64,000 nucleotides of DNA, taken from assembly GCA_947644545.1 (NCBI GenBank), contig CANRZW010000001.1, positions 186,001 through 250,000 on the forward strand. Reading direction: 5' to 3'. Below are positions 2,655-24,307 of the stretch, piece after piece (position 1 is the stretch's first letter; each line of letters begins with the position of its first letter). This stretch comes from an uncultured Lachnospiraceae bacterium (lineage in GTDB: Bacteria > Bacillota > Clostridia > Lachnospirales > Lachnospiraceae). A program made the position numbers and the translations under genes. Below the pieces are notes generated by a model. It saw only the letters and a list, made by a program, of their open reading frames with translations, ran no database searches and was not told the DNA's origin.

Positions 2655-4166
<1,512 letters not shown>

Positions 4167-18850: not shown

Positions 18851-18979
18851 GATCCATTTTATCCTATCATAAATAAAAGCCGCCTGTAGTTCCATTGGAG
18901 AAGCTTCTCTTCCTGGTCTTCCCGACAAAACTCCGTCCAATGGCTCTACATGATGAACAGCTTTCCTGATTTCTTAAGT

Positions 18980-19171
18980 TTATAATGCTTCGATCTGCTT
19001 CATAAGATCATCGATATTCAATCCATGAACCATCGCCGCCTCTTCCAGAGACTCTCCCTGCGCGGAAGGGCATCCAAGGCAGTGCATTCCCGCATTCATA
19101 AGAACCGGTGCAACATCCGGATTCGTCCTCAAGATCTCTCCTATCGTCATCTCCTTCGTAATATTTGCCAT
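18980..19171 (-). CDS. DUF1858 redox-disulfide domain protein
   Basis: 63 residues covering one whole DUF1858 domain: [20 protein letters not shown], then [22 protein letters not shown]. The CLGC pair (C-x2-C) is the redox motif of the family, often found with anaerobic redox enzymes. GGAGG lies five bases before the ATG at 19169-19171; an ATG four codons upstream overlaps that site and is rejected. It is divergent from the pyruvate formate-lyase gene. Partner unknown. Confidence 0.88.
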
Positions 19172-19300
19172 TTTTCCCTCCATTCCGAAGCGTCACAAAT
19201 CTAAACCGAACTTGTGCAGTTTGCCGAACAAAATTGCTCATCGGATAATTTGTGCAGCCTTCTGACCTTTATTCTCTGTCATTGTACCTGTACCTTTCCT

Positions 19301-19329
19301 AGTATAATCTGAAAACGATTTTCCTGCAA
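19301..19329 (-). promoter_or_regulatory. Promoter of the DUF1858 gene
   Basis: Minus-strand TTGCAG, 17-bp spacer, TATACT. It would give a leader of about 125 bases before the ATG. It is divergent from the pfl promoter about 110 bp away. The 19172-19556 gap contains only these two promoters, a direct repeat TTGTGCAG (near 19213 and 19250) and the pfl leader hairpin. Confidence 0.65.
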
Positions 19330-19436
19330 GTCTTATCTTGTCTGCTTTATTTTTCATCTTGTGTAAATTACATGCAAAATTCACAAAATTTAACAATGAA
19401 AAACTGATTTGTATGAGAAAAAGTACAAAGCCCGAC

Positions 19437-19466
19437 TTGACGTTACAGCTTGCTTTAACATATAAT
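19437..19466 (+). promoter_or_regulatory. Promoter of the split pyruvate formate-lyase operon
   Basis: TTGACG, 18-bp spacer and a perfect TATAAT, about 90 bp before the ATG of the PFL core. A near-consensus promoter fits the strong codon bias of the genes it would drive. Confidence 0.8.
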
Positions 19467-19490
19467 GTTGATACCGGATAAGCATGTTTT

Positions 19491-19513
19491 CCGGCACTTC
19501 ACAATTGTGCCGG
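19491..19513 (+). promoter_or_regulatory. Hairpin in the pfl mRNA leader
   Basis: Perfect 7-bp stem CCGGCAC/GTGCCGG with a 9-base loop, about 25 bases after the -10 box. It would form near the 5' end of the message and could protect it from decay or be part of an operator. No T-run follows. Confidence 0.5.
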
Positions 19514-19556
19514 GAGATTAACAACTTACACTAATATTGATAGGAGGCTATTCAAA

Positions 19557-21596
19557 ATGAGACCAGAATGGACAGATTTTGTAGGCGGCAAGTGGGACAA
19601 AGAAGTTAATGTCCGCGACTTCATCCAGAGAAACTATCATCCTTATGACGGTGATGAGTCCTTCTTAGCCGAGGCTACACAGAACACAAAAGACTTATGG
19701 GCACAGGTTCTTGAGTTACAGAAACAGGAACGTGAAGCAGGCGGCGTGCTGGATATGGATACCAAGGTTGTATCTACCATCACATCTCATGGCCCGGGTT
19801 ATTTGGACAAGAGCAAAGAGACAATCGTAGGTTTCCAGACTGATAAGCCTTTTAAGCGCTCCTTACAGCCTTACGGCGGTATCAGAATGGCAGAGAAGGC
19901 ATGTTCCGATAACGGCTACGAAGTAGATCCCGAGATCAGCGAGTTCTTCTCCACACACAGAAAGACACACAATGCAGGCTGTTTCGATGCTTACAATGCA
20001 GAGATGAGAGCATGTCGTTCTTCCCACATTATCACAGGTCTTCCGGATGCATACGGACGTGGACGTATCATCGGTGACTACAGACGTGTGGCTCTGTACG
20101 GTATCGACAGACTGATCGAGGACAAACAGGCACAGAAAGATTCCACAGGACGTGTTATGACAGACGACGTAATCCGTCTTCGTGAAGAATTATCCGAGCA
20201 GATGGTTGCTCTGAAGCTGATGAAGGAAATGGCTGCTTCTTATGGCTGCGATATTTCCAAGCCCGCTTCCAATGTACAGGAAGCAATCCAGGCTACTTAC
20301 TTCGGATACCTTTGCTCCGTAAAAGAGCAGAACGGTGCTGCTATGTCCCTTGGACGTACATCCACCTTCCTTGACATCTATGCTGAGAGAGACCTGGCTA
20401 ACGGTACTTTCACAGAGCAGCAGATCCAGGAGTTCGTTGACCACTTCATCATGAAGCTGCGTCTGATCAAGTTTGCTCGTACACCTGAGTACAACCAGAT
20501 CTTCGCAGGCGATCCGGTATGGGTAACAGAGTCCCTCGGCGGTGTTGGCGTTGACGGCCGTCCGATGGTAACGAAGATGAGCTTCCGTTATCTGCACACA
20601 CTGACCAACTTAGGGCCTTCTCCGGAGCCGAACCTGACAGTTCTGTGGTCCACAAGACTGCCTGAGAACTGGAAGAGATACTGTGCTAAGATGTCCATCC
20701 AGACTTCTTCCATCCAGTATGAGAACGATGATCTGATGAGAGTGACACACGGTGACGACTACGGTATCGCATGCTGCGTATCTTCCATGGTAATCGGTAA
20801 AGAGATGCAGTTCTTCGGTGCCCGCGCTAACCTTGCTAAATGTCTGCTGTACGCTTTGAACGGCGGTGTTGACGAAGTTACAAAGAAGCAGGTTGGTCCG
20901 AAATATCGTCCTGTTGCAGGCGATGTTCTTGAGTACAACGATGTTCTGGATAAGTTCCTTGATATGATGGAGTGGCAGGCAGATGTATATGTAAATACAT
21001 TGAACATCATCCACTACATGCATGACAAATACTGCTATGAGAGAGCAGAGATGGCTCTTCATGACAGAGACGTTAAGCGTTATTTCGCAACAGGTGTTGC
21101 AGGTCTGTCTATCGTGGCTGACTCCTTATCTGCTATCAAGTATGCTAAGGTTGAGCCGATCAGAGACGAAGACGGTATCATCGTTGACTTCAAGACAACC
21201 GGCGACTTCCCGAAATATGGTAATGACGATGACCGCGTAGACGAGATCGCTCAGGAGATCGTTCACAAGTTCATGACAGCGATCAGAAGACATCACACCT
21301 ACAGAAACGGTGTTCCGACAACATCCATCCTTACCATTACTTCCAACGTAACTTACGGTAAGGCTACCGGTAACACACCTGACGGACGTAAGAAAGGCCA
21401 GCCTTTCGCTCCGGGTGCTAACCCGATGCACGGCCGCGATACGCATGGTGCAGTAGCTTCCCTGTCTTCCGTATCCAAGCTTCCGTTCAATGATGCACAG
21501 GATGGTATCTCCAATACCTTCACCATCATTCCGGGCGCTCTTGGTAAAGAGGATCAGGTATTTGCAGGCGATATCGAATTAGACCTGAATAAATAA
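19557..21596 (+). CDS. pflB: Pyruvate formate-lyase catalytic core lacking the glycyl-radical domain
   Basis: 679 residues; usual PFL is about 750-760. It follows PFL from the N-terminus through [11 protein letters not shown] (catalytic Cys406-Cys407), [42 protein letters not shown] and [17 protein letters not shown], then ends in an unrelated tail [12 protein letters not shown] and two stop codons (TAATAA). The glycine-radical segment RVSGYAV is absent here and is encoded separately at 21977-22216. The enzyme cleaves pyruvate with CoA to acetyl-CoA and formate. AGGAGG precedes the ATG. Codon choice is that of a highly expressed gene, so it is not a decaying copy. Confidence 0.95.
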
Positions 21597-21616
21597 TAAC
21601 GTGCAAAGCTCACGCA

Positions 21617-21645
21617 GGAGAATGCTTGCACGACAAGCATTCTCC
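21617..21645 (+). other. Intercistronic hairpin after the PFL core
   Basis: Perfect 12-bp stem (GGAGAATGCTTG/CAAGCATTCTCC) with a 5-base loop, starting 20 bases after the stop. No T-run follows, so it is more likely an mRNA processing or stability element than a terminator. It would allow different amounts of core and small proteins. Confidence 0.6.
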
Positions 21646-21674
21646 GATCAACTCTCCACATGGGGGAATTTAGT

Positions 21675-21878
21675 ATGGATAACAAGCAGATGATCGATGA
21701 CTTTGTCAAGATGATGGATTCCGGGATGGCACAGGGTGTCGGACACGTGAATGTCGATGTCGATGACAAGGCAGAAGAATCTAAGAATGTTCAGACAATG
21801 GGCTGTACCGATTGTTCCCGTACACCTCTTGCCTGCAGCGTTCCGACTCTCCAGGAGGGTCTGGACGATTATAAATAA
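21675..21878 (+). CDS. Small Cys protein related to the start of the glycyl-radical domain
   Basis: 67 residues (MDNKQMIDDFVKMMDSG...). GGGGGA lies eight bases before the ATG at 21675; an ATG five codons upstream overlaps that site. Residues 8-29 align without gaps, at the same numbering, with residues 8-29 of the radical-domain protein encoded next: Asp8, Val11, Asp15, Gly21, His24, Asn26, Val27 and Val29 are identical. It then diverges: no RVSGYAV loop, but Cys44, Cys47 and Cys54 in GCTDCSRTPLACS. I infer a duplicated and remodelled radical-domain fragment. Function unknown; it could bind the PFL core or a metal. Confidence 0.75.
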   Translation: MDNKQMIDDFVKMMDSGMAQGVGHVNVDVDDKAEESKNVQTMGCTDCSRTPLACSVPTLQEGLDDYK

Positions 21879-21976
21879 ACATCGAACCATGTAGATTGCC
21901 TGCTTCCGTATGGAGGATCTGTCAGAAGTCTGCAGGGCGAGATACCGCAAATTATTATTAATAGGAGGACACAACA

Positions 21977-22216
21977 ATGGCAGCAAATGCTCAGGTAGAT
22001 AACTTAGTATCATTATTGGATGGTTATGCAACAAAAGGCGGCCATCACCTTAACGTTAACGTACTCAACAGAGATACCTTACTGGACGCTCAGAAGCATC
22101 CCGAGAACTATCCTCAGTTGACAATCCGTGTATCCGGCTATGCAGTTAACTTCATCAAGCTGACACCGGAACAGCAGGCAGACGTTATCTCCCGTACTTT
22201 CCATGAGTCAGTTTAA
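21977..22216 (+). CDS. Free-standing glycyl-radical domain completing pyruvate formate-lyase
   Basis: 79 residues. [21 protein letters not shown], then [20 protein letters not shown] and RVSGYAV (radical-bearing Gly54), ending [18 protein letters not shown], corresponds to the last ~70 residues of ordinary PFL, starting where the core at 19557-21596 stops. GrcA/YfiD spare parts have a longer, different N-terminus; this one does not, so I read it as the missing end of the enzyme. AGGAGG precedes the ATG. PflA (22438) should abstract hydrogen from Gly54. It is followed by a terminator. Confidence 0.93.
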
Positions 22217-22249
22217 TTCGACGCGTAGAAATACCGACAGATAACAAAA

Positions 22250-22276
22250 GCAGTCTATGTAGTCTATACAGACTGC
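22250..22276 (+). repeat. Inverted repeat upstream of the pfl terminator
   Basis: GCAGTCT and AGACTGC (7 bp) enclose 13 bases, about 35 bases after the radical-domain stop. It may fold just ahead of the terminator hairpin. Confidence 0.4.
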
Positions 22277-22294
22277 ACATAACGGATAGGACAG

Positions 22295-22325
22295 AACGCC
22301 AGGGACATTGCTCCCTGGCGTTTTT
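22295..22325 (+). terminator. Rho-independent terminator of the pfl operon
   Basis: An 11-bp stem (AACGCCAGGGA with TCCCTGGCGTT) with a CATTGC loop and an uninterrupted TTTTT. It ends the message carrying core, Cys protein and radical domain and separates it from pflA. Confidence 0.93.
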
Positions 22326-22390
22326 CTGCTGCACCGTGAAGCAATGGCATGATGTCCCAATAAAGTCTGGTTTTTTTCAGGAATACAGGT

Positions 22391-22396
22391 TATACT
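22391..22396 (+). promoter_or_regulatory. Possible -10 box for pflA
   Basis: TATACT about 42 bp before the pflA ATG. The -35 region (TGGTTT at 17 bp) is poor, so this promoter may be weak or activator-dependent. That fits an enzyme needed in small amounts. Confidence 0.4.
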
Positions 22397-22437
22397 ATAC
22401 TTACCAAGAATGATGAAGAGAAAGAAGGTTTTTACTT

Positions 22438-23208
22438 ATGCAGGGAAGAATACACTCCTTAGAAAGTTTCGGTACCGTAGACGGGCCGGGCGTCAGGTTC
22501 GTCGTGTTTGTACAGGGCTGTCCCATGCGCTGTGCCTACTGCCATAATCCCGACACCTGGGAAATGAACGGCGGCACGTTGATGGAGCCGTCCTATATCA
22601 TCGAACAATATGAGCGTAATATCAGTTTCTATAAGGGCGGCGGCATCACTGTAACGGGCGGAGAGCCTCTGATGCAGGTAGATTTCCTGCTGGATCTGTT
22701 CCGCCTGGCGAAGAAGAAGAATATCCATACCTGTATCGATTCCTCCGGCATCGCCTACAAGAAAAATGCCAATCCCGAATGGCTTGCCAAACTGGACGAG
22801 CTGATGACCATGACAGACCTGGTGATGCTTGACATCAAACATATCGACCCCGAGAAACATAAAGAGCTGACTTCTCAGCCTAACGACGGTATTCTTGCTT
22901 TCGCGGAATATCTGAATGACAAACATGTGGATATGTGGATCCGCCACGTCATCGTGCCCGGTATCACCGACGATGATAAGTACCTGTACCAGCTGGGCTA
23001 CTTTATCGGAGCCTTCACTAATCTCAAAGCGCTGGATGCCCTTCCTTATCATACCATGGGCAAGCCGAAATACGAGAAACTGGGCATGGCCTACAAACTG
23101 GAGGGCGTAGAGCCCATGGATAAGAGTAAGCTGATCGAGAAGAAGCAAGTCATTCTGGACGGTATCCGCAAACGCCGCGAGGAATTGGGACTGCGCCAGC
23201 AATCGTAA
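22438..23208 (+). CDS. pflA: Pyruvate formate-lyase activating enzyme
   Basis: 256 residues, full length. The radical-SAM cluster motif is Cys28-x3-Cys32-x2-Cys35 (GCPMRCAYCHNPDTW), and GGGITVTGGEPLMQ is the SAM-binding GGEP segment. It uses a [4Fe-4S] cluster and S-adenosylmethionine to make the glycyl radical on PFL, here on the separate 79-residue protein. No extra ferredoxin domain. AAGGT nine bases before the ATG. It lies between the pfl terminator and a ferredoxin gene. Confidence 0.97.
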   Translation: MQGRIHSLESFGTVDGPGVRFVVFVQGCPMRCAYCHNPDTWEMNGGTLMEPSYIIEQYERNISFYKGGGITVTGGEPLMQVDFLLDLFRLAKKKNIHTCIDSSGIAYKKNANPEWLAKLDELMTMTDLVMLDIKHIDPEKHKELTSQPNDGILAFAEYLNDKHVDMWIRHVIVPGITDDDKYLYQLGYFIGAFTNLKALDALPYHTMGKPKYEKLGMAYKLEGVEPMDKSKLIEKKQVILDGIRKRREELGLRQQS

Positions 23209-23255
23209 CGGCTCAGCCTTAACACAGCCTGCCTTGTTTTTTCAATAATTGCCAC

Positions 23256-23284
23256 TTGTATATTGTGCCCTTTTATATTAAAAT
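23256..23284 (+). promoter_or_regulatory. Promoter of the ferredoxin gene
   Basis: TTGTAT, 17-bp spacer, TAAAAT, about 60 bp before the ATG at 23344. Confidence 0.6.
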
Positions 23285-23289
23285 AGAAG

Positions 23290-23307
23290 TTGATAAATTT
23301 ATATCAA
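23290..23307. promoter_or_regulatory. Dyad at the ferredoxin transcription start
   Basis: TTGATA and TATCAA arms with 6 bases between, immediately after the -10 box where a repressor could block transcription. It resembles operator half-sites of redox regulators in general layout only; spacing does not match the FNR or Rex consensus. Confidence 0.35.
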
Positions 23308-23343
23308 TCTCACATAGTTTTATAACATAAGGAGGATATCAAT

Positions 23344-23514
23344 ATGGCATTCGTAATCAATGACGGCTGTGTATCTTGCGGCGCTTGTGAAGCACAGTGC
23401 CCGGTAGGCGCAATCAGCATGGGCGACGGTAAGTTCGAGATCGACGCAGCTAAATGTATCGACTGCGGTTCCTGCGCAGGCGCTTGCCCTACAGGTTCTA
23501 TCGAGCAGGGTTAA
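23344..23514 (+). CDS. 2[4Fe-4S] clostridial-type ferredoxin
   Basis: 56 residues, MAFVINDGCVSCGACEAQCP at the start. Two cluster motifs are complete: Cys9, 12, 15 with Cys19 and Cys38, 41, 44 with Cys48, each in C-x2-C-x2-C-x3-C-P form. It is a low-potential electron carrier for pyruvate and hydrogen metabolism. Its place right after pflA suggests it may reduce the PflA cluster, which is inference. AGGAGG lies before the ATG. Codon use is that of a highly expressed gene. A weak hairpin (GACCGG/CCGGTC, 23517-23535) follows the stop. Confidence 0.95.
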   Translation: MAFVINDGCVSCGACEAQCPVGAISMGDGKFEIDAAKCIDCGSCAGACPTGSIEQG

Positions 23515-23569
23515 TGGACCGGTAAGAGTCCGGTCGGGCTCTCTTCCTCTGTCATGGATGATAGAACGA

Positions 23570-24307
23570 TCACTGGCTGGTCGTCTCGTCTTTGACAGAG
23601 GATTTCTTTTTTCCTCTGCCCAGCCTTTCCTTTGGCCTGTGACGTTCTCTGATCATCTCATCAATCTTCCGATAATGTTCTTCCTCTCTCTTCCAGCGCT
23701 CCTCGTCACGTTCTTCCTGCATCCGAAACTGATAATCAAGCTCCTTCAATATGCTTTCCTTGACATCCGTACACAGCTCTTTGTTGGCTGATTTCACGGC
23801 TTCCGTAATCATATGCTGCAGCAGATATTGAAGCCTTGCTGCTTTTCTGCTCTTATCCTCCTCCATATATTCCTTCGTTTCCAGTTCCTCTTTCTCTTTC
23901 GACAATGCCACTACAAAGGCTGTTCCTTTCATTTCCTGTTCCATCCTGTCACCTGTCATACTTTCTGTCATATTCCGCTCTCCTGTCATTTCTTCTTGTT
24001 TTACTGCTTCTTTTCCTGACTCTGTCATACTGCGTTCCATCTCCACCGTCTGGCTCACCTGCTGCATCAGCACATCATCCGGCATGCGAAACAGGATCGT
24101 CCGAATCGCTTTGAGCTGAAGTCCCTGCTCCTTAAGCTGCTTGATTTCCTTAAGCTGTCTGATATCCTTTTCCGTGTAACAACGATGACCCATCTCATTG
24201 CGCATAATGGGAAGCTCCAGTTCCTCCTCCCAGTAGCGCAGTACATGGCTCTCTACCTGCACCTTCTTAGCCGCCTCGGATATGTAGTAGATTGTTTTTT
24301 GCTCCAT
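23570..24307 (-). CDS. MerR-type regulator with long repetitive linker
   Basis: 245 residues from the ATG at 24305-24307, which follows GGAGAGGAG. The N-terminal winged helix (TIYYISEAAKKVQVESHVLR, then YWEEELELPIMRNEMGHRCY) is a MerR DNA-binding domain. The middle (about 85-130) repeats MTES and MTG-E/D-R units, and the C-terminal half is a highly charged coiled coil ending in a basic tail (RHRPKERLGRGKKKS). No effector-binding domain is seen. It follows dnaB. Target unknown; the layout recalls chromosome-binding MerR proteins such as RacA. Confidence 0.8.
   Translation of the reverse strand: MEQKTIYYISEAAKKVQVESHVLRYWEEELELPIMRNEMGHRCYTEKDIRQLKEIKQLKEQGLQLKAIRTILFRMPDDVLMQQVSQTVEMERSMTESGKEAVKQEEMTGERNMTESMTGDRMEQEMKGTAFVVALSKEKEELETKEYMEEDKSRKAARLQYLLQHMITEAVKSANKELCTDVKESILKELDYQFRMQEERDEERWKREEEHYRKIDEMIRERHRPKERLGRGKKKSSVKDETTSQ

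Follow-up and report, generated by a model that had tools for sequence, protein, structure and literature searches.

Gene content of the locus

The window analyzed here, a stretch of 64,000 nucleotides from an uncultured Lachnospiraceae bacterium, carries at positions 19557 to 22216 a pyruvate formate-lyase (PFL) that is, with high confidence, split into separate polypeptides. One gene encodes the catalytic core, another encodes a free glycyl-radical protein of the GrcA3 family, and a third, lying between them, encodes a 67-residue protein with cysteines in its C-terminal half. The main features, all on the plus strand, are listed below with their evidence in brackets; dN/dS is the ratio of nonsynonymous to synonymous substitution rates.

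19542..19547, +: AGGAGG ribosome-binding site of the core (sequence)
19557..21596, +: PFL catalytic core, 679 amino acids (aa), ending in TAA TAA, without a glycyl-radical domain (TIGR01255, alignment with Escherichia coli PFL)
20772..20777, +: codons of the catalytic pair Cys406-Cys407 (sequence; both columns invariant in 26 close cores)
21558..21593, +: split-specific C-terminal segment of the core, 12 residues (pattern test on split versus fused rows)
21675..21878, +: gene for the 67-aa cysteine protein, N-terminal half like the docking half of the radical domain, C-terminal half GCTDCSRTPLACSVPTL (profiles, homologues, dN/dS)
21963..21968, +: AGGAGG ribosome-binding site of GrcA3 (sequence)
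21977..22216, +: GrcA3, free glycyl-radical subunit, 79 aa (NF038360, alignment with E. coli PFL)
22136..22138, +: codon of Gly54, the radical glycine of RVSGY (sequence; pairs with the RVSGY glycine of E. coli PFL)
22438..23208, +: PflA, PFL-activating radical S-adenosylmethionine enzyme, 256 aa (TIGR02493)

An earlier note, made from the letters of this DNA, had described the core and the radical protein. All that it listed is present in the sequence: the coordinates, the TAATAA end and Cys406-Cys407 pair of the core, a gap of 380 bp from the core to GrcA3, both AGGAGG sites and RVSGYAV with Gly54. The open reading frame (ORF) of the 67-aa protein, preceded by GGGGGA, lies inside that gap. 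PflA belongs to its family by score (TIGR02493, 291.4 bits; cut-off, 231.75).

The core and GrcA3 together span one PFL

The core scored 1087.1 bits against TIGR01255 (cut-off, 994.2), with profile positions 2 to 665 of 744 covered. Since the match stops at position 665, the chain lacks the C-terminal glycyl-radical domain that a PFL carries. The adjacent catalytic cysteines typical of PFL are present as Cys406-Cys407. The predicted reaction is that of PFL, the conversion of pyruvate and coenzyme A to acetyl-coenzyme A and formate. When aligned with E. coli PFL, it covered residues 10 to 681, and the 79-residue protein covered residues 683 to 758; thus, no catalytic segment has been lost. After the shared ...LGKED, the core carries its short extra C-terminal segment, the pattern of which was found in 63 of the 71 split tails tested and in none of 17 fused rows, 6 of the latter being loci fetched twice. 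The earlier note had added core and domain up to one normal PFL of 758 residues with nothing lost. As to catalytic segments this held, whereas the sum of 679 and 79 is partly a coincidence, because the core has the split-specific segment and the linker of GrcA3 shows a 5-residue gap relative to E. coli PFL. The effective number of codons of the core (38.6) is the lowest among 38 mechanically picked window ORFs of at least 200 aa (median, 47.0), a codon bias that fits high expression.

The 79-aa protein scored 161.3 bits against NF038360, "autonomous glycyl radical cofactor GrcA3" (cut-off, 158), and has the glycine of RVSGY. It stays below the cut-offs of the GrcA and GrcA2 models (TIGR04365, GrcA/YfiD, 100.5 versus 170 bits), and with 79 residues it lacks the extra N-terminal half of the GrcA/YfiD proteins of about 127 residues, as the earlier note had said. 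Because GrcA3 is already a named NCBIfam model, the small radical protein is not new in itself. Its dN/dS values, 8.6% of pairs reaching at least 0.5 with a maximum of 2.9, came from ungapped rows with likely N-terminal misregistration and were not relied on.

A conserved split, with no intact PFL found in the genome

The window's own genome comprises 4.07 Mb in 83 contigs and is 95.0% complete. Profile searches found no intact PFL in it, a result that leaves the missing 5% as a place where one could lie. PFL-like matches of Pfam fell in three places, namely the window core and two other enzymes. The latter were rejected as PFLs by their TIGR01255 scores of 101.9 and 55.0 (versus the cut-off of 994.2); where PFL has Cys-Cys they read GCVE and GCME, which we take to be their active-site motifs. 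Two further glycyl-radical matches are anaerobic ribonucleotide reductases (NrdD), and the only GrcA3 match above the cut-off is that of the window. The name of the GrcA3 family suggests a spare part for full-length PFL. Repair of such an enzyme was rejected for this genome, as no full-length PFL was found.

Among the matches listed for 200 genomes of the family Lachnospiraceae, TIGR01255 was above its cut-off in 146. Many of the listed cores stop near profile position 663 to 677, and GrcA3 lies close downstream of most of them. A split PFL is present in at least 76 of the 200 genomes, a figure made up of 73 complete split loci, one per genome, and partial loci at contig ends in three more. 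The partial cores (L113, L128 and L132), each with a homologue of the 67-aa protein beside it, were left out of the 73. At least three of the split genomes (G070, G102 and G112) have a full-length PFL in addition. Across the class Clostridia, 14 loci were chosen for a full or stand-alone short match to the profile of the 67-aa protein; all 14 have a split core, and 13 belong to families other than that of the window. The reading frame of the core is interrupted in one of these (L235). Gene order varies in L231, where the 67-aa gene lies 3' of GrcA3, and in L090, where PflA stands between the core and GrcA3. The two findings that the earlier note had said would overturn its reading, an intact PFL in the same genome and a stop peculiar to this strain, were thus not obtained.

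Some family genomes have a second GrcA3 gene, unlinked to a core. Eleven such loci were inspected (L112, L114 to L122 and L134): a rubrerythrin gene lies within about 0.6 kb in one (L117), and a Crp/Fnr-type regulator stands beside two (L116 and L122). A spare supply of GrcA3 under oxygen stress fits these neighborhoods, which do not by themselves show it.

A conserved cysteine protein accompanies the split PFL

Searches of NCBIfam (E ≤ 0.01), Pfam (E ≤ 1) and PDB (E ≤ 10) with the 67-aa protein gave nothing, and its matches to PHROGs were weak (best E, 0.024). Relatives are nevertheless numerous, at least 549 in a scan of one genome per species, and the best 80 of these include those of Kineothrix alysoides and Acetatifactor muris. 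We examined these 80 named loci, which are the closest relatives and not a random sample, together with the window. A core lies within 600 bp upstream of the 67-aa gene in 81 of 81 loci and GrcA3 within 600 bp downstream in 79; PflA lies no more than 2.5 kb away in 68 of 81, not every locus being long enough to show it. A Shine-Dalgarno-like string precedes the gene in 77 of 81. Homologues at E ≤ 1e-10 occur in 51 of the 200 family genomes among the matches listed, two of them truncated (G009 and G019), and all 51 of these genomes also have a split core among those matches. The gene is under purifying selection: in 437 pairs from 59 of the 81 sequences, ungapped and 67 codons long, dN/dS had a median of 0.083 and a maximum of 0.249, and the value for the cysteine half was 0.051. 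Read-through from the core into this gene led nowhere as an idea, since the two share a frame in the window but are separated by two stops, and the offset varies among loci.

The two halves of the protein have different relatives. In HHalign comparisons, each a single-profile search, residues 3 to 33 resembled the N-terminal half of GrcA3 before the radical loop (probability, 95.2%; E, 2.7e-8), whereas residues 46 to 67 resembled a profile of C-terminal tails from 16 other split cores (96.7%; E, 4.3e-10). GrcA3 and the split-core tails showed no likeness in the same kind of comparison (0.1%). The profile of the 67-aa protein, built from 24 sequences picked by hand from the homologue set, also found the stretch before the radical loop in genome-wide searches, both in GrcA3 and in fused PFLs. 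Hence, the N-terminal half is homologous to GrcA3, and the C-terminal half has two or three cysteines where the radical loop would be, a number that holds for 45 of 47 family proteins. The protein also retains His and Asn from the strand of the radical domain. Of 47 family loci, 22 have a spacing of 30 from that His to the last Cys and 38 have one of 29 to 31, and the His-to-Gly spacing of GrcA3 is 30 in 93 of 93; therefore, the last cysteine usually stands about at the place of the radical glycine.

The earlier note had proposed an active enzyme made of two polypeptides. The split and the free radical protein stood up to analysis, whereas the third conserved polypeptide had been missed and the radical protein already bore the name GrcA3.

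The cysteines come in trans or in cis

We then sorted the split loci by where the cysteines are encoded, calling a locus trans when it has the 67-aa protein and cis, by plain count, when the core tail has at least two cysteines. In the family, 47 of the 73 loci are trans only, 24 are cis only, none is both and two are neither. Two of the trans loci (L053 and L064) encode a 67-aa protein whose C-terminal half is cut short with CxxC kept, and one of the two "neither" loci (L107, in G001) has an unlinked 67-aa homologue elsewhere in its genome. The 14 class-wide loci divide into four trans, eight cis and two neither. In total, the 87 split loci comprise 52 trans (one unlinked), 32 cis, 3 neither and 0 both, and as a count this complementarity is striking. 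Judged by eye, 22 of the 32 cis tails resemble an ACxxPxL-like pattern, and the tail profile was built from 16 of the 24 family tails. Left out of it were L054, L060, L061, L067, L073, L082, L085 and L095, which have cysteine pairs of another kind. The 23 rows missed by the tail pattern were classed by eye: 19 are fused, two are cis (L058 and L084) and two are duplicates (L127 and L137).

Among the fused PFL loci (L010 to L039), a cysteine cluster in the linker was found in 1 of 30, L024. This locus, also seen as L123 (G079), encodes a fused PFL with the linker TCGCEEVTCAV and a GrcA3-like radical domain, and it may be either a re-fusion or a form that predates the split. In a tree of 99 cores, from which the fused rows L010 to L013 were dropped and eight duplicate loci left out, the split cores fall into one group (98% support in the Shimodaira-Hasegawa-like approximate likelihood ratio test) that includes four fused cores. 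On this tree the "cis tail" trait changes about ten times, and four of the changes are forced by supported branches.

A proposed assembly and its alternatives

The three genes, their order and conservation, the purifying selection, the homologies of the two halves and the cis-or-trans pattern can all be read from the sequence. From these we infer the assembly, the docking site, the capping and the exchange described below. The best explanation as a whole, to which we would give an even chance, is an obligately multi-polypeptide PFL that includes the cysteine element. The core would bring the Cys406-Cys407 pair, and GrcA3, activated by PflA, would dock there by its strand and Gly54 loop. With no full-length PFL found that it could repair, GrcA3 would serve as the standing radical subunit. 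The 67-aa protein, or in other species the short core tail, would provide a cysteine pair or trio. We prefer to see this cysteine element as tied to a condition peculiar to split enzymes, a core lacking its radical subunit. As it reproduces the docking half of that subunit, the 67-aa protein would most likely seat in the same groove of a core whose subunit is absent or oxygen-cut. Its last cysteine would then come to lie about where Gly54 belongs, beside Cys406-Cys407, and the site would be kept closed until GrcA3 displaces it. The resemblance of the strand and the usual spacing support such seating, and capping of the vacant radical-domain site by the cysteine element is a possibility that we put forward tentatively. 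It is rather doubtful that the protein is a dummy radical subunit, that is, a relative of the docking half whose glycine loop became a cysteine motif, which guards the catalytic cysteines through exposure to oxygen and is then swapped for GrcA3. If true, a glycyl-radical enzyme would have a placeholder protein that the core's own cysteine tail can replace. Where the cis tails sit on the core is a guess. Cheap exchange of an oxygen-cut radical subunit may also be inferred, and it is the extra, unlinked GrcA3 genes that point to it.

Several observations weigh against this assembly. No such cysteines were found in 3 of the 87 split loci (L090, L241 and L243); the cysteines are therefore not essential to every split PFL. 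The cis class, defined by plain count, includes 8 of 24 family tails that lack the ACxxPxL-like pattern. Only three contrasts of cis with trans were both independent and placed on well-supported branches; on average, 2.9 of them ran as expected (median P of the sign test, 0.25), and complementarity is accordingly not proven to be independent of kinship. Likewise, a topology in which the split cores form a clade of their own, with the four nested fused cores outside it, was not rejected by the approximately unbiased test (P = 0.45), so that the tree does not establish re-fusion accompanied by cysteine loss. The His-to-Cys spacing has outliers, up to 36 among family loci and up to 48 for two of the named loci, and the register with Gly54 is hence not strict. 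Moreover, the cis tails have cysteines without a docking strand, meaning that capping by strand replacement is not the whole story in cis loci.

Other roles for the cysteine element were considered. In one, which we regard as unlikely, the 67-aa protein or core tail is a trans recognition element for docking of GrcA3 or activation by PflA, as residues 696 to 733 of oxygen-cut E. coli PFL are for YfiD. In the study concerned (PMC8683613), an E. coli core cut at residue 695 showed no measurable YfiD binding and poor activation, and both were good when residues 696 to 733 were kept. The window core ends about at this cut, and the helix-strand stretch that it lacks is similar to the 67-aa protein. 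However, GrcA3 itself has the same strand, so that two strands would compete for one place, and the cis tails offer cysteines without any such strand. It is quite unlikely, too, that the cysteines act through a bound metal or a disulfide to control how the radical subunit closes on the core, as has been proposed for the Fe-S or Fe accessory subunits of benzylsuccinate synthase (BSS) and 1-methylalkyl succinate synthase (MASS). Closely placed cysteines are kept in the small proteins despite variable surrounding sequence, and the accessory subunits of other glycyl-radical enzymes have been proposed to regulate closure (PMC12358834 and PMC12590467). Yet 45 of the 47 family proteins have two or three cysteines, short of a four-cysteine cluster. 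A self-contained 4Fe-4S or rubredoxin site usually needs more than that. PDB sequence searches gave no match to Fe-S or Fe accessory subunits, the best profile match being an unrelated protein (E, 0.18).

Action away from the active site, with the element for instance tethering PflA, signalling proteolysis or sensing oxygen for turnover, appears improbable. It would suit an element that accompanies a split PFL, whose parts must meet, and cis tails that are short and could be flexible, but it leaves the retained radical-domain strand His and Asn of the 67-aa protein unexplained. Finally, a stop mutation might have cut an ordinary PFL and left decaying pieces, and the stop does lie at the domain border, with nothing more in favor of decay. 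We rejected this as highly improbable, in agreement with the earlier note: the split is kept in the family genomes counted above and in other families, the 67-aa protein is under purifying selection, the genes have their own ribosome sites and the core has the strongest codon bias of the 38 window ORFs. Furthermore, 62 complete cores could be read from the 80 closest named loci, and none of them is unbroken, all being 678 to 679 aa long.

Comparison with known systems

E. coli PflB shares with the window the catalytic core, the Cys-Cys pair and the sequence of the radical domain. It is one polypeptide, whereas here the radical domain is separate and a short new segment closes the core at its C terminus. 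In GrcA/YfiD (TIGR04365), as in GrcA3 (NF038360), a free glycyl-radical domain is predicted to dock on a PFL core, and the same is predicted for the window protein. According to PMC8683613, YfiD has a disordered N-terminus of 60 residues and rescues PFL that has lost its own domain. Unlike YfiD, the window GrcA3 would be the only radical subunit, given that no full-length PFL was found. The same study describes E. coli PFL truncated at residue 695 (tPFL) combined with YfiD lacking its N-terminus; the pair was poorly bound and activated in vitro, and the complexes that were activated are reported to match the wild type in activity. This pair is like the window enzyme in having about the same core cut and a radical domain without an extra N-terminus, and it differs in being man-made, whereas the window system is natural and has a third polypeptide. 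By analogy, the window core may be likened to a natural cut core, and GrcA3 to a natural trimmed domain.

Two PDB entries labelled "Formate acetyltransferase", 38la and 38lb, with chains of 687 and 739 residues, match the core, and neither appears among the matches to GrcA3; 38la reaches as far as core residue 666. Either could be a naturally split core or a truncated construct, and others may already be studying split PFLs. The core-tail and 67-aa profiles matched neither entry, and a tailed core used as the query aligned up to residue 696 of 38lb and not beyond. BSS-beta and -gamma, MASS-delta and HPAD-gamma are, like the 67-aa protein, small cysteine-bearing partners of a glycyl-radical enzyme. 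Compared with them, the 67-aa protein gives no sequence match, has fewer cysteines and has an N-terminal half homologous to the radical domain.

We recognized no description of a natural split PFL or of the cysteine protein in the open-access literature, which is weak evidence of absence since most subscription journals and all bioRxiv preprints lie outside that body. The new element of the system is the cysteine protein. A large group of Clostridia with a separately made radical domain is a natural system for testing exchange of a damaged radical subunit against discarding the whole enzyme. The cysteine protein, which occurs only with a split PFL among the matches listed in the 200 family genomes, offers a handle on protection or assembly of the empty radical site. 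These comparisons also suggest that labels such as "formate C-acetyltransferase" on the core and "autonomous cofactor" on the domain give a wrong picture of what is a single enzyme in several parts.

Signals, neighboring genes and further small proteins

The following signals lie around the genes, again on the plus strand.

19437..19466, +: TTGACG-18-TATAAT, candidate promoter 5' of the core gene (11 of 12 matches in a consensus scan)
21617..21645, +: hairpin with a perfect 12-bp stem, lying between the core gene and that of the 67-aa protein (RNA fold of 21594 to 21676, z = −4.68)
22295..22325, +: terminator-like hairpin with a T run, 3' of GrcA3 (fold of 22214 to 22340, z = −5.30)

The consensus scan returned eight promoter-like sites in the scanned region against 6.3 expected; the match upstream of the core is hence no proof of a promoter. 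The 12-bp hairpin might set the ratio of core to small subunit. The terminator-like hairpin comes from the fold only and was absent from the list of the pattern scan, and a search of Rfam with positions 18900 to 23600 gave no match. On the 3' side of PflA lies a small ferredoxin-like gene (23344 to 23514) with two CxxCxxCxxxCP patterns, a possible electron donor. Upstream of the core, a divergent gene on the minus strand (18980 to 19183) encodes another protein of 67 aa, presumably resembling DUF1858-type proteins.

Further small-protein families were seen alongside. A second one has a similar N-terminal half and the conserved C-terminal half YHHGRCD(V/I)GSP(W/F)A. It is found in contig C68 of G000 (L138, match at 3181 to 3282, minus strand) and at L139, L141 to L143, L145, L148 and L149. 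Two members tested gave a best NCBIfam E value of 0.11 and no Pfam match, and no PFL gene was seen near the family in the few kilobases fetched. A third group of this kind, at L140, L144 and L147 in family genomes, has the C-terminal half CC(H/N)MYGRxxxExVGxLDMY(T/S)D.

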